Of a stretch of DNA of 64,000 bases, positions 1 through 5,764 are shown piece by piece; position 1 is the first letter of the stretch, and each line of letters starts with the position of its first letter. The stretch is from Arthrobacter terricola (lineage in GTDB: Bacteria; Actinomycetota; Actinomycetes; Actinomycetales; Micrococcaceae): the NCBI RefSeq assembly GCF_004354015.1, contig NZ_SMRU01000004.1, positions 42,953 to 106,952 on the forward strand. Reading direction: 5' to 3'. Under the pieces are notes generated by a model that ran no database searches, was not told the origin of the DNA, and saw nothing but the letters and a program-made list of their open reading frames with translations. The position numbers were made by a program, and so were the translations under genes.

Positions 1-2721
1 CGTGAGCACGGCGTCTATGGCTCCAAGCCCGAGGGAAGACGCGATCACTGCATGGGTCACGATGGTCCAGAAACCGAAACCGGCCCGGCGAAGAATTCCG
101 CAGTCAGCCTCTCCAACTTGGCGGTAGTTCGTGCCCGTGGGCTGCGCCGGCGAGCCGTTCCACGCGGCGCCTTCGGGAACCGTTTGGAAGCGATGCAACG
201 ATGAGCTGTGACCCAACTGGGCAGCATCGCCCATTGCGGTGTCGATGTCCAACGTGGTCATTTCACCAATCAGGACATTTCGCCCCAAGGTGACGGGACC
301 GGTCTGGATCCTGCCTCCGATGGCGCGGTAGCAGTTCAAGCTGGAGTTCCTCCGAATGACGGTATCCGCGCCAATCGTCAATAGGTCGGTGCAGATTGGG
401 ATCCTGGAAGAGAGGAACGTGACGCGCGGGCCGATCTTCCCGCCCAAGGCCTTGAGGTAGAGGGGAAAGACCGGCGTCCCGACGAACATTCGAATCGGAC
501 TGGTGGTGATCAACGTTTTGACGAACCAGAATCTGACGTAGGCCAGGGACCAGACCGGAAATTCCCGGGTCTTCCACCGGCCGACAAGTACCCATTTGAG
601 CAAGACCGGCATTGAGGTCATCATCAGGAAGGTCGCGGTGCCGACGACGACGGCACGCGCCACGGCGTCGCCGGGCTGCGCAGACTGCACAACCCATTGT
701 TCACCGGCAAGCGGGATGACCATCAATACGTAGGCGTACGCCAGGGCTGCCACCGCCTGCAATGCACCACACAGGAAGTACGGAAAGTTCCCGACCGTCA
801 GGAATGGTTCGGCGACCGCGATTTCCGTGTGTCCTGCACGGTCGGCGGAAAGGTCGGCGTTGCTGGCGGCGTCCAGGGCCGACGCCAAGGCAGTGATGGT
901 CGGGTTCGCATAGACATCACTCATCGAGACCGACGGCGAATTGGATTCACGCCGGACGTTGGCGCAAAAATGAGCCATCAGTAAGGAATTTGCCCCGAGA
1001 TCGTTGAAGAAGTTTGCCGAAGTGGACACTCTCTCGAGCTTTAGTGCCGCCGCCAATGCAGTGGCGAGTATCCGTTCCGTGGGTGATGCAGGCTTGGTAT
1101 CGGCAAAGTCCGCACTGATTGCGCGCGGACCGATGGGATTCGGAAGGCTCTTGCGGTCCGCCTTGCCGCTTGCCAGCATGGGCATGGCCCCCAGCAACTG
1201 GAAATAGCCCGGCACCATGAATCCGGGAAGGCGCCGCCGCAGCCAAGCGAGGATGTCACCCGTTTCCAGCACGATCCCGTCCTGGCGCACCGTGTAGTAC
1301 GCGGCAAGTTCCGTTGTACCCGGTTCGGGCTCCCAGGTCTTCACTACAGCCAACGCAATCCCTGGCAGCTCCAGTAGTACGTTTTCGATCTCGGCCAGCT
1401 CGATCCGGTATCCGCGAAGTTTCACTTGAGTGTCTGTCCGGCCGTGGTATTCGATTTCCCCATTGTCGTTGAACCGACCGAGGTCGCCGGTGCGGTAGAT
1501 GCGGTGCGAAGGATTTCCCTCAAGGCCGAGGAAGTCCCCAATGAATGACTTCTCCGTTAGCTCGGGGCGGTTGATGTAGCCGCGGGCGAGGCCGATGCCG
1601 GCCAAGCCGATTTCGCCCAGCTCGCCGTAAGGCAGGGCGCGATCAGTCTCGGGGTCCAGGATCACCGCCGAATAGCCGGGAAGCGGGGTCCCAAGGGTGA
1701 CGGGCCGGCGCGGGTCCGCCACTCCCCAGGTAGCTGTCACGGTGGCCTCGGTGGGTCCGTAGACATTGAGGAACCGACGGCCGGGTCTATGCCAACGCGC
1801 GATGAGGTCGGGCGGGCAGGCCTCCCCCGAAACGAGCAGGAAGCGCAGTCCGGGAAGGTCGTCGTCGAGCGTGGCGAGCAACGTCGGTACGCAGCACAGC
1901 GCAGTGATGTTCCGGGTTCCGATGAACTCTGCCAGGTCCGGCCCGAGGAGGTTGTTCCCGGCCGGTCGAGGCACCAACGTTGCTCCGACTTTCCACGGTA
2001 CCCAGATTTCCTCGACGGAGAAGTCGAAAGCCACGGTCATGCCCTGGTACACGCGGTCGTGGAATTCGTATCCGTAGACATCGGCAGCAACCCGGACGAA
2101 GTGACAGATGCTGGCATGGGCTATGGCCACGCCCTTGGGCAATCCGGTGGATCCCGAGGTGTAGATAATATAGGCGAGGCCATCATCCGCGTTCTCCGGC
2201 CCCGCCCAGTCCACCCGCCCTGGATCAAACGCCGCGATGCGAGGGTCCTCTTCGTTGACGCAGATGACGTGTGCCGCACCTTCCTGCGGCAGGCGCTCCG
2301 CCAAGTGGGACGAGGTCAGTACGACGGTTACCTCGGCGTCGGCGAGAATAAAGGAGATTCTTTCGGAGGGGAAAGCCGTGTCGATGGGTACATAGACGGC
2401 ATGCGCCTTGAGGACTGCAAGCATGCTGACGTATGACCGCACGGCCTCATCGAAGAACAGCGCGATCCGATCGCCTTGGCGCACTCCGCGGGCCATAAGG
2501 TAACGGGCGAGCATGTTCGCCCGGGCGTCCAGTTCCGGATAGCTTATCGCGCCGTCCGGCGTCTCAACGGCTGGATGGTGGCCACGTCCTTCGGTCTGTA
2601 ATTGGTCGCATCGTGCCTCGAAGAGCTGTTCCAGCCGCTCGCCGGGACTCCACCGGATGCTCTTGTCACGAAGGGCACTGGCAAGGACCGGGGAACGGTC
2701 CGGGACTCTACCGTGGCGCAT
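1..2721 (-). CDS. Pls-type single-module NRPS (A-PCP-membrane/LbH terminal domain), C-terminus cut by window start
   Basis: 907 codons are open from an ATG at 2721 to the window edge, so the C-terminus is missing. Residues about 30-530 form an adenylation domain: P-loop [11 protein letters not shown]4 motif [10 protein letters not shown], and YRTGDLG. A carrier domain follows with LGANSL (phosphopantetheine Ser579). Then come hydrophobic segments from about residue 640 and a left-handed beta-helix-like stretch ([16 protein letters not shown]). This order (A, PCP, membrane part with hexapeptide-like terminal domain, no ordinary condensation domain) is that of the epsilon-poly-lysine synthetase (Pls) family and its terminal domain family TIGR02353. 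The gene overlaps the diaminobutyrate aminotransferase by 14 bases. Inference: an enzyme that activates and oligomerises a diamino acid at the membrane. The substrate cannot be read with certainty by eye. Confidence 0.85.
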
Positions 2722-4120
2722 CGCCCGGGATCCCTGCGGTGGCGCGACCCTTTGCGGCGGCAGTCTCTTCGGCGAAGGCGGCCAGCAGCAGCTTGCACGC
2801 TTCGTCGGTGGTCTCTTCCGTGATGATCAGGGGAGGAAGGAGCCTGACGACGCAATCGTCCCGCCCACCGCATTCGAGGATCAGGCCATGCTGCAGGGCC
2901 CTCCTTTGCACAGCCCGCGCCATGTGTCCGGCGGGGCGGCCTGTCTCCGGATCGGCCAGCTCGATTCCCCACATGAGGCCCCAGCCCCGCACTTCGCGCA
3001 CCCAGGGATTGCTGGCCAACGGCTCGAGAAGGAGGCCGATCTGCGTTCCACGCCGACGGACGTTTTCCAAGACGTTATCGCGCCGAATAATCTCCACTGC
3101 CGCGGCTCCCGCAGCGAAAGCAAGCTGGTTGCCGCGGAACGTGCCGGTGTGGGCGCCGGGGAGCCACCGGTCAAGCTTCCTGTCGTACATAATCACGGCA
3201 ACCGGGAGGCCGAACCCGCTCAGGGCTTTCGACGCGATGATGACATCCGGCTCGATCCCGAACTGCTCAAATGCAAACCAGGTCCCTGTGCGGCCGCCTC
3301 CGGTTTGGATCTCATCGACAATCAACGGTATGTCGAGTTCACGGGTTACCCGCCGCACTGTCCGCACGAATTCCGGGGTCGCGCGGACCACGCCGCCTTC
3401 TCCCTGGATCATCTCCATGATGACGGCCGCCGGGCGCGGAATCCCCCCGAGCGGGTCCTTGAGCGAATTTTCGAAGAACTGGACGCAGTTGGTCGAACAG
3501 GTTTCGGGCCGAAGGCCAACCGGACACCGCGAACAGTAGGAATAAGGAAAGAAGTGAACGCCTGGCAACCCGTTCGCGACCGGTTCTTTCTGCTCGAGGA
3601 GTCCCGACAAAGCCATGCCGGCCGCGCTGCTCCCATGGAATCCGCCCTGGAAGGAAACTATGTCACCCCGTCCCGTTGCCGTCTTGCATAGTTTGATGGC
3701 CGCATCGACTGCGTTTGCACCGGTCGGTCCGCAAAAGTGCATCTTCATCCGGTTCGCGAGCCCCGGGGGAAGCATGGACAGTTGGGCCGTCATGAACGCG
3801 TCCTTGGCTGGCGTTGGCAGGTCAAGTCCATGGGTTAGCGTGCCCGCTTGGCCTGCCACAACGTCAGTCAACTCCGGATGGCTGTGGCCCAAGGTCAAAA
3901 CCCCTGCGCCTGCCAGGAAATCAATGAACACATTGTCATCGACGTCCCGGACGAACGCACCCGCGCCCTCGGCAATGGCTATGGGCAAGTGCCGCGGGTA
4001 TGTACGGGCGTTGGATTCATCGCGTTCCTGGCGTGCCAGCAGTTCGGCGGACCTGGGTCCCGGCAGGGGTCCGGTCACGTGGGCCGCGCTAAACGTAGCC
4101 GGCTGCGGGAGAACGTTCAT
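2708..4120 (-). CDS. dat: L-2,4-diaminobutyrate--2-oxoglutarate aminotransferase
   Basis: 470 aa class III PLP aminotransferase that makes 2,4-diaminobutyrate from aspartate semialdehyde and glutamate. Visible motifs are the [13 protein letters not shown]-terminal segment, the substrate-region stretch [13 protein letters not shown] typical of DABA aminotransferases, the metal/cofactor motif [12 protein letters not shown] and the PLP lysine in SKALSGFG. The length fits EctB/Dat (about 420-470). An AAGGA ribosome binding site precedes the ATG. It lies between a LysC-type aspartate kinase and a Pls-type NRPS; neither ectA/ectC (ectoine) nor a diaminobutyrate decarboxylase (siderophores) is adjacent, so supply of monomer to the NRPS is the favoured role. 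Confidence 0.92.
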
Positions 4121-4226
4121 GGCGATTTGTCCTTATCTCACGGATCCGCAGAAGCGGGTCGGATTACGTGGCCCTTCCGGGCTCAGGTGTCCAGCTGCGG
4201 GAAGAACCGGGGACGCATTGGCCCCG

Positions 4227-5597
4227 CTAAGGCGCTGGCGTGGCCTCCACTTTCCGGTCGTCCAACCCGAAGGACCGAAGCACAGCATTCCGGGCGTCCT
4301 CAAGGACCTCCGCCCGGATGGCTACATCTATCCGGATGTCCGAGGCCGATATCAGTTCGACGTCGATTCCTGCGGCTGCAAGGGACCTGAAGAGCCGGGA
4401 TACCACCTTTCCTCCGGCACGCATCCCCAGCCCCACCAACGAAAGCCTTGCGATGCCGGCGTCGTATTGAAGGTCCTCGAAGCCGATGGGGGCCTGGGCC
4501 GCTGACAATGCGGCGCGTAGGCGGTACCCGTCCCGGCGATGGACCAACAGCGAGAGGTCGCTCGTGGCTCCGTTCCCGGACGGGACGTTTTGCGCGATCA
4601 TGTCGACGTTGGCCTCTTCATCGGCTATTACTTCGAAGATTCCGGCGGATCTTCCCACTTCATCCGTCACTCCCACCACCGTCAATTTCCCCATCGACGT
4701 GTCACCGAGGACCGCCGATACAACAGGCTGCTCAACGGACGCCGCCTTGTTCCAGTGCGACCCGTGATTGGGTGCCGGGAGGACCAACGTACCCGCCGAG
4801 CCGTTGAAGGAAGAGCGTACATGGATGGGGACGTCGAAACGGCGGGCATATTCGACGCACCTGGGGTTCAGGATTCTGGAACCGCACGCTGCTAGTTCCA
4901 GCATTTCCTCGGTGGAGATGACGTCGATTTTCCGCGCCATTGGAACGATCCGCGGGTCCGCGGTGAAGACGCCCTCCACGTCGGTGTAAATCTCGCATAT
5001 GCCGGCACGCAATGCGGCGGCCAGAGCGATCGCCGTGAGGTCTGAACCGCCCCTGCCCAGGGTTGTCACCCCTTTGCTCTTACGGCCCTTGCCTTGGAAA
5101 CCGGCGACGATAGCCACTTCTTCGCGGTTCAGGCAGGCGCGTATGCGATGCGGATCCACTGCGACAATGTGCGCCCTGCCGTGGATGCCGTCGGTGATGA
5201 GCCCCGCCTTCTTGCCGCTGAATGTCCGGGAGGGAACCCCCAGGTCTGCCAGCGCAATCGCCAGCAGCGTGACGGAAATCCGTTCACCGGTGGTCAGCAA
5301 CTCGTCAAGTTCGTCGCCAGGCGGCCGGGAACTGAGGGCTGCGGCGAGGTGGAGCAATTCGTCGGTGGTATCACCCATGGCCGATACCACCACCACCAAC
5401 GGATGCCCGACCCTGCGTGTGTCGGAGATCCTCCGGGCAACACGCTTTATGGCGGCAACGTCAGCGACCGATGAGCCACCGTATTTCTGGACGATGAGAT
5501 CCTCGGCTCGAAGATTTGTAGGCGGACGAAGCGGGTCCAAAGTCGGGGATGTTGCCGAATCCGGGCGGGCCCGGACCCCGACTGCCTGTTGGTACAT
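4227..5597 (-). CDS. lysC: Aspartate kinase (LysC type), probably dedicated to the adjacent diaminobutyrate pathway
   Basis: 456 aa. Phosphorylates aspartate, first step to aspartate semialdehyde. Kinase domain motifs: VQKYGGSSV near the start, SAMGDTTDELL, TTGERIS, and TTLGRGGSDLTA. Two ACT domains follow (GKLTVVGVTDEVG and IARLSLVGLGM). The ATG at 5597 is chosen because an ideal AGGAGG lies just upstream; the frame stays open to 5744 but without homology. It is the first gene of the operon with dat and the Pls-type NRPS. Compared by eye with Corynebacterium glutamicum LysC, the positions of A279, S301, T308 and T311 carry Ser317, Pro339, Ser346 and Ser349; changes at these places relieve lysine/threonine inhibition in that enzyme. 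A relaxed-feedback, pathway-dedicated kinase is the inference. Confidence 0.93.
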   Translation of the reverse strand: MYQQAVGVRARPDSATSPTLDPLRPPTNLRAEDLIVQKYGGSSVADVAAIKRVARRISDTRRVGHPLVVVVSAMGDTTDELLHLAAALSSRPPGDELDELLTTGERISVTLLAIALADLGVPSRTFSGKKAGLITDGIHGRAHIVAVDPHRIRACLNREEVAIVAGFQGKGRKSKGVTTLGRGGSDLTAIALAAALRAGICEIYTDVEGVFTADPRIVPMARKIDVISTEEMLELAACGSRILNPRCVEYARRFDVPIHVRSSFNGSAGTLVLPAPNHGSHWNKAASVEQPVVSAVLGDTSMGKLTVVGVTDEVGRSAGIFEVIADEEANVDMIAQNVPSGNGATSDLSLLVHRRDGYRLRAALSAAQAPIGFEDLQYDAGIARLSLVGLGMRAGGKVVSRLFRSLAAAGIDVELISASDIRIDVAIRAEVLEDARNAVLRSFGLDDRKVEATPAP

Positions 5598-5764
5598 GGT
5601 GCCTCCTGAAGACCGCACCCCCTTTTTGAGATTACAACGTTTTGGCAACACCGGCGGTTCACTTAGGCAACTTAAAACTCCGCTTTCGGGCGCGGAAATA
5701 CAGCACGCCGGGCTCATGCAATTCAAAATCTTGACGTTCGTCATGAAAGTGATATCTTTGAAGT

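Follow-up and report, generated by a model that had tools for sequence, protein, structure and literature searches.

A putative poly-diaminobutyrate cassette in Arthrobacter: a Pls-type synthetase with its own aspartate kinase and transaminase

In the available text of PMC8117764, the proven producers of poly-diaminobutyric acid (poly-Dab) are limited to certain Streptomyces strains and Streptoalloteichus hindustanus. A gene-context figure legend of that paper names pldA, dat, ask and pddA together; PldA is the gamma-poly-L-Dab synthetase of Streptomyces. In S. hindustanus, which makes the D polymer, a transaminase (PddC) and an aspartate kinase (PddD) serve the poly-D-Dab synthetase, and the gene for a DapF-like racemase is coupled to the synthetase gene (PMC8225329, as far as excerpted). 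Gamma-poly-L-Dab is described as more antifungal and less antibacterial than polylysine (PMC8117764). What such polymers do in nature is said to have escaped researchers for the most part (PMC9606270, in the part available). Described here is a locus of Arthrobacter terricola, within a 64,000-nucleotide stretch of DNA termed the window (positions 42953-106952 of parent contig C43), at which an aspartate kinase gene (ask), a diaminobutyrate transaminase gene (dat) and a Pls/PosA-family synthetase gene stand together. From the same partial literature, ask and dat beside such a synthetase are already known from poly-Dab producers, and what appears to be new here is the genus. Arthrobacter is listed in PMC8117764 among the genera with polylysine synthetases; cheese and skin coryneforms have, in the text available, polylysine synthetases, but with cut-offs of 40% identity and 80% coverage the poly-Dab queries gave no matches there. 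A search of the open-licence literature found no report of poly-Dab from Arthrobacter.

The three-gene cassette probably makes gamma-poly-L-Dab, a cationic isopeptide polymer. The prediction of a Dab product is based on a short substrate pocket, on the coupling of dat and ask to the synthetase, on the existence of synthetase fusions to both supply enzymes, and on the Pls-type architecture. A cationic Dab polymer had been proposed in a preliminary description of the window, as a homopolymer or a mixed oligomer. The Pls-type terminal domain found at the C-terminus, the Phe/Glu pocket and the linked supply genes support the Dab polymer; no support was found for a mixed oligomer.

The genes ask, dat and the synthetase gene are adjacent on the minus strand in that transcription order, as first described; the open reading frames and family profiles bear this out (AA_kinase, 164.5 bits, together with ACT_9; TIGR00709, 445.7 bits against a cut-off of 401.6; TIGR02353, 672 bits). 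The 14-base overlap between dat and the synthetase gene was likewise recovered. The ask ATG at 5597 has AGGAGG immediately upstream, and a longer ask frame begins at 5744. The window edge cuts the synthetase gene. Its remainder (L005:8595-9953) lies to the left, with the stop 1358 bases beyond the edge, so the complete protein in the parent contig has 1359 amino acids (L005:8595-12674). This leftward extension, which had been suggested earlier, places the TIGR02353 domain at the missing C-terminus. Further to the left, HAD protein, phosphate transporter and DNA polymerase I genes are among those found.

TIGR02353 is the profile named 'Pls/PosA family non-ribosomal peptide synthetase' (NRPS), with a cut-off of 423.1 bits. 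The match spans residues 651-1347 and covers positions 2-695 of the 695 in the profile. The adenylation region scores 400 bits against the AA-adenyl-dom profile, and the protein has one adenylation (A) domain and one peptidyl carrier protein (PCP) domain (PF00501, PF13193, PF00550). Condensation, thioesterase and reductase domains were absent from a Pfam scan in which five families matched, the TIGRFAM terminal domain being present instead. Members of the family are expected to have three soluble domains set between paired membrane helices; in the window synthetase, hydropathy gives hydrophobic stretches in three groups, at residues 653-708, 887-955 and 1141-1200, and matches to the hexapeptide profile are close to cut-off. 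The motifs of the adenylation and carrier domains can be recognised. A genome search for AMP-binding domains returned only this synthetase on contig C43, leaving no further NRPS module there. The A-PCP-terminal-domain order is common to the window synthetase and Pls (7wew; Corynebacterium variabile), but Pls has the pocket DAESIGTVVK and a peptidase neighbor, in contrast to DFECLSVVTK with dat and ask. PldA likewise shares the family architecture and, in the legend mentioned above, the company of dat and ask; its host genus differs, and the likeness noted is one of architecture and of the genes named in the legend.

The ten-residue pocket of the window synthetase, DFECLSVVTK, was obtained from a MAFFT alignment. 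According to the excerpted text of PMC10522769, position 2 of the pocket is Ala in synthetases for lysine, Met in those for ornithine and Phe in poly-diaminopropionate (PDAP) and poly-Dab (PDAB) synthetases, and Asp at position 1 and Glu at position 3 are family-wide. In the window enzyme position 2 is Phe and position 3 is Glu, the residue that binds the amine of the side chain. It is thus assigned a short-side-chain pocket, since Phe at this position marks the diaminopropionate (Dap) and Dab enzymes; an A domain specific for a neutral amino acid, raised beforehand as a reason to abandon the polymer, does not fit these two residues. PosA, the delta-poly-L-ornithine synthetase, belongs to the same family and also has Glu at position 3, but carries Met at position 2 (DMEHNGTVSK; PMC10522769).

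The two supply enzymes match their family profiles, although Dat lies below the cut-offs of the narrower models PRK06938 and PRK06931. The second-best Dat match in the same genome is 34% identical to the window Dat. K298 is predicted from a motif to be the pyridoxal phosphate lysine. The window Ask is 54% identical to a housekeeping aspartate kinase on contig C26 of the same genome. When regulatory sites are numbered by alignment on the aspartokinase of C. glutamicum, housekeeping Asks display A/S/T/S at 279/301/308/311 in 22/22 copies, whereas cassette Asks are changed at 279 in 27/27 and at 308 in 26/27; the window Ask has S, P, S and S. LysC-T311I is feedback-resistant (PMC4225761, in part). 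Two Asks per genome are found in 25 of the 27 carrier genomes tested, as against 0/3 lysine-only genomes, and both single-Ask carriers (G400 and G417) have a cluster without intact ask.

The association between pocket and supply genes holds across the genus. A search of 206 genomes, with at most three candidates scored per genome, gives counts that are lower bounds: synthetase matches at E 1e-60 or better are present in at least 167/206. Every listed locus with a full-length protein identity of 52% or more was taken, 28 loci in addition to the window, and with the fragment L115 this gives 30 loci in 29 genomes, here called the DFEC set. The pocket DFECLSVVTK is found in all 30, the window included. 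For comparison, 30 lysine-type loci were fetched, of which 28 were readable (13 from the genus and 15 from outside; L108 and L111, unresolved by open reading frame calling, were dropped), and the pocket is DAESIGTV(V/I)K in 28/28. Also dropped before counting were L007-L012, which have the same synthetase matches as L054-L059, and L081-L092, L113, L114 and L116-L123, with neither pocket class or an unreadable pocket. With a tblastn match above 100 bits within 4 kb of the synthetase as the neighbor criterion, the pair of Dab transaminase and aspartate kinase accompanies 26/30 DFEC loci but 0/28 lysine-pocket loci (Fisher p 1.3e-12, indicative only, as the rows are related). At the lysine-type loci an aspartate kinase was found within 4 kb in 0/28, and a weak transaminase match in one (L103). 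The DFEC-type synthetase is thus present in at least 29/206 genus genomes, 26 of them with both supply genes.

Two subtypes can be distinguished. In subtype 1, the window and eight relatives, synthetases are 71-75% identical, the order is ask-dat-synthetase and dat is 81-85% identical to that of the window. Subtype 2 comprises 20 loci with synthetases 52-56% identical and, where complete, the order datB-ask-synthetase; datB is about 35% identical to the window dat, and the one example checked, L064, scores 629 bits against the EctB profile, above its cut-off of 552.2 bits. A Dab transaminase is thus kept in both subtypes. A quick tree of 83 proteins groups the window subtype in one clade (support 100) with P0013 and P0014, a separate clade holds 15/16 complete and 3/4 incomplete subtype-2 loci with L062 apart, and the lysine enzymes lie across a long branch, long branches being flagged by the tool. 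Because the pocket is unchanged while transaminase family and gene order vary, its constancy is read as selection for Dab supply.

Filled and empty sites delimit the cassette. All of the 8/8 close relatives fetched share one gene order (polA, pit, had, synthetase, dat, ask, tdo, kynU, paaX), and the three genes of the window have the same place and order, minus the flanking tdo; the arrangement is therefore beyond chance. A search limited to the window did not find tdo, and ask there faces kynU. In 5/5 chosen non-carriers the site is empty: had adjoins tdo with no cassette gene between, and tdo stands beside kynU. From the full site in relatives and the empty site in non-carriers, the three genes are evidently gained or lost together. 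The had gene, which begins 10 bases past the synthetase stop, was considered as a fourth member and rejected, as it is present in 46/61 sampled genus genomes and at all five empty-site loci.

Fusions provide a further link. Similarity searches gathered 235 homologues, which, being picked by similarity, are not independent: 220 have DFECLSVVTK, 13 DFECLSVVSK, one DFECLSTVTK and one is incomplete. P0185 (1881 amino acids), from a more distant relative, joins the synthetase in one protein with a dat that shares 70% identity with that of the window, and P0119 (1832 amino acids), also from a distant relative, joins it with an Ask 36% identical to the window Ask. Both are predicted proteins only, with the same pocket as the window synthetase. 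Apart from these, the predicted synthetases P0016 (Arthrobacter pigmenti) and P0019 display an extra, differently coded A domain ahead of the Dab-type A domain and are possibly mixed-substrate enzymes or mispredicted. Outside the genus, and not counted above, a Hyphomicrobiales metagenome-assembled contig (L013:6595-11990) encodes a Pls-family synthetase with the pocket DFEPISAVSK, immediately preceded by an EctB-type Dab transaminase; it is a possible poly-Dab locus outside Actinomycetota.

The proposed pathway is as follows. The extra Ask, with its altered regulatory sites, would turn aspartate into aspartyl phosphate even when lysine and threonine are present, and the ordinary cellular Asd, assumed to be present, would give aspartate semialdehyde. 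Dat would transaminate this to L-2,4-diaminobutyrate. The A domain, its pocket shortened by Phe at position 2, would adenylate Dab and load it on Ser579, and the C-terminal domains between putative membrane helices would join the gamma-amine to the next Dab carboxyl, repeatedly. By analogy with polylysine synthetase, the chain may be passed outside the cell. Coordinates of the features are collected in Table 1.

Table 1. Positions of the cassette features in the window
Feature	Position	Strand	Basis or remarks
Pls/PosA-family synthetase, N-terminal 907 of 1359 amino acids	1..2721	-	full frame from parent contig; ATG at 2721
Adenylation domain, residues 43-520	1162..2595	-	PF00501 at 43-382, PF13193 at 444-520
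F234 and E237, positions 2 and 3 of the pocket DFECLSVVTK	2011..2022	-	MAFFT columns; roles from PMC10522769 (in part)
Ser579, predicted phosphopantetheine attachment site (LGANS)	985..987	-	PF00550, 30.9 bits at 552-616
Terminal membrane domain, start (residues 651-907)	1..771	-	TIGR02353; hydrophobic stretches 653-708 and from 887
dat, predicted diaminobutyrate--2-oxoglutarate transaminase, 470 amino acids	2708..4120	-	TIGR00709 above cut-off
ask, predicted second aspartate kinase, 456 amino acids, altered ACT region	4227..5597	-	family profiles and comparison with C26 copy
Intergenic region between ask and divergent kynU	5598..5764		possible promoter side of operon; tdo here in 8 relatives

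Several points weigh against a poly-Dab product. Position 311 is Ser in housekeeping Asks as well, and the stretch with the regulatory sites is gapped in the alignment and unsure for the second subtype. Positions 279, 301 and 308 count as regulatory, and with the changes there the cassette Ask may escape feedback. An AlphaFold model of the C-terminal half, made for the relative L009 from a 7-row alignment, has a mean predicted local distance difference test score of 34. Of the DFEC loci, 4/30 do not have the full gene set: L061, L066 and L079 have neither dat nor ask by threshold, and at L063 ask is present but the contig ends there, so that the full set is not seen. In L060 dat is in two frames (L060:5485-6917), a sign of decay, and in L115 the synthetase is broken. 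No proven poly-Dab synthetase was found as an anchor among the matches listed; nor is any Streptoalloteichus hindustanus or Streptomyces celluloflavus protein named among these (120 per search, many of them unnamed). PDAP and PDAB synthetases are, moreover, hard to tell apart by sequence (PMC10522769, in the text available); the pocket cannot split Dap from Dab, and therefore the neighboring genes decide, in favor of Dab. Finally, the available part of PMC8117764 reports that polylysine was not detected from the native strain of Corynebacterium variabile, although its Pls gene is intact.

The first alternative concerns stereochemistry: L-Dab might be racemised before activation to give gamma-poly-D-Dab, as with PddA/PddB of S. 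hindustanus. The own transaminase and aspartate kinase of the PddA pathway, pddA-pddD, are features shared with the window (PMC8225329, in part), and the genome has two DapF homologues (L014:1417-2385; L017:6477-7841). These are, however, on contigs C32 and C53; the genome search gave no DapF match on C43, so the cassette is without the PddB-like gene that is coupled to the synthetase in S. hindustanus. Both homologues, read by eye, keep the Glu-Arg pair of DapF, in which Dab racemases carry Val in place of Arg (PMC8225329), and the C53 copy passes the TIGR00652 DapF cut-off (174.6 bits). Since no PddB-like Dab racemase was found, the product is predicted to be L and not D, and the racemised polymer is considered unlikely.

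It is quite improbable that the synthetase polymerises Dap, or builds a mixed chain rich in Dab, while dat and ask have a different role. The beta-poly-L-Dap synthetase of S. albulus PD-1 does have Phe at position 2, like the window enzyme (PMC10522769), and its A domain activates Dab too, less strongly than Dap (PMC4668381, both in part). Its precursor genes, though, are cysteine-synthetase and ornithine-cyclodeaminase homologues that are unlinked to it (PMC4668381), as opposed to the linked dat and ask of the window. The genes adjoining the window synthetase are of Dab and not Dap type, and the fusions to dat and Ask have the same pocket.

A decayed or silent cluster without product is very unlikely. 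Such a view could draw on the C. variabile result cited above (PMC8117764) and on decay in the relatives L060, L079 and L115; L079 has a 180-amino-acid ACT_9-bearing frame (L079:6125-6664) just upstream, where ask would be. All three genes of the window are nevertheless open, and the adenylation and carrier motifs are retained, as is the predicted catalytic lysine. Dat is also the shared first step of ectoine, siderophore and polyamine routes from Dab, but it is highly improbable that Dab flows there past a bystander synthetase, since dat overlaps the synthetase gene and moves with it, no EctC match was found in the genome (weak evidence, 14 control genomes being silent as well), and of the two PF00282 decarboxylases one is a glutamate decarboxylase (628 bits) while the other lies far under the cut-offs of both PanP (89.8 bits) and Dab decarboxylase (84.1 bits), in keeping with the earlier view that siderophore and ectoine routes were less likely.

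The poly-L-Dab cassette is not the only Pls-type system of this genome. A second synthetase (L006:6141-10103, contig C32) has the pocket DAESIGTVVK, and its A domain scores 656 bits against 7wew, the solved polylysine synthetase, which shows the same pocket in an alignment read by eye. An M1 peptidase and a phosphopantetheinyl transferase are beside it (L006:4001-10103). The combination of lysine pocket and adjacent peptidase is found at this locus and not at the window synthetase, and the C32 enzyme is predicted to make polylysine.

Other loci were noted in passing. On contig C53 (L017:2842-12701) lysA and dapF occur as a second set, together with genes for a class I/II aminotransferase and a DapD-like protein, near an open frame in which GcvP positions 1-319 are joined to GcvT; the locus could be real, or the contig a contaminant or mis-assembled. 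At L082:8408-14148 a protein of about 1040 amino acids, in which three carrier domains in tandem are combined with a TIGR02353 terminal domain, stands beside a separate A-PCP protein with the pocket DIWQSTADDK or DIWQCTTDDK, a pocket type also found at L081, L083, L085, L087-L092, L113, L114, L117 and L118. In L092 the carrier-rich protein and A-PCP are in one 1907-amino-acid frame; domains were checked in L082 and L092 only. This different Pls-like system may have to do with branched Dap polymers, which PMC9606270 mentions in the text available.

By analogy with the described polymers, the product of the window cassette is likely to act as an antimicrobial, mildly antifungal or antibacterial. 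A broader view can be put forward tentatively, and it may well not hold: the three genes would represent a mobile cassette in which a membrane polymerase brings a private aspartate-to-Dab supply, assembled as a complex that is covalent in some actinobacteria, with a transaminase exchangeable between two families. It would provide a second cationic polymer beside polylysine, so that related soil strains differ in the polymers they secrete. The synthetase type is frequent in a common soil genus and tied to its supply enzymes by fusions. Because close relatives differ cleanly at a single site in having or lacking it, it offers ready comparisons for what the polymer does.

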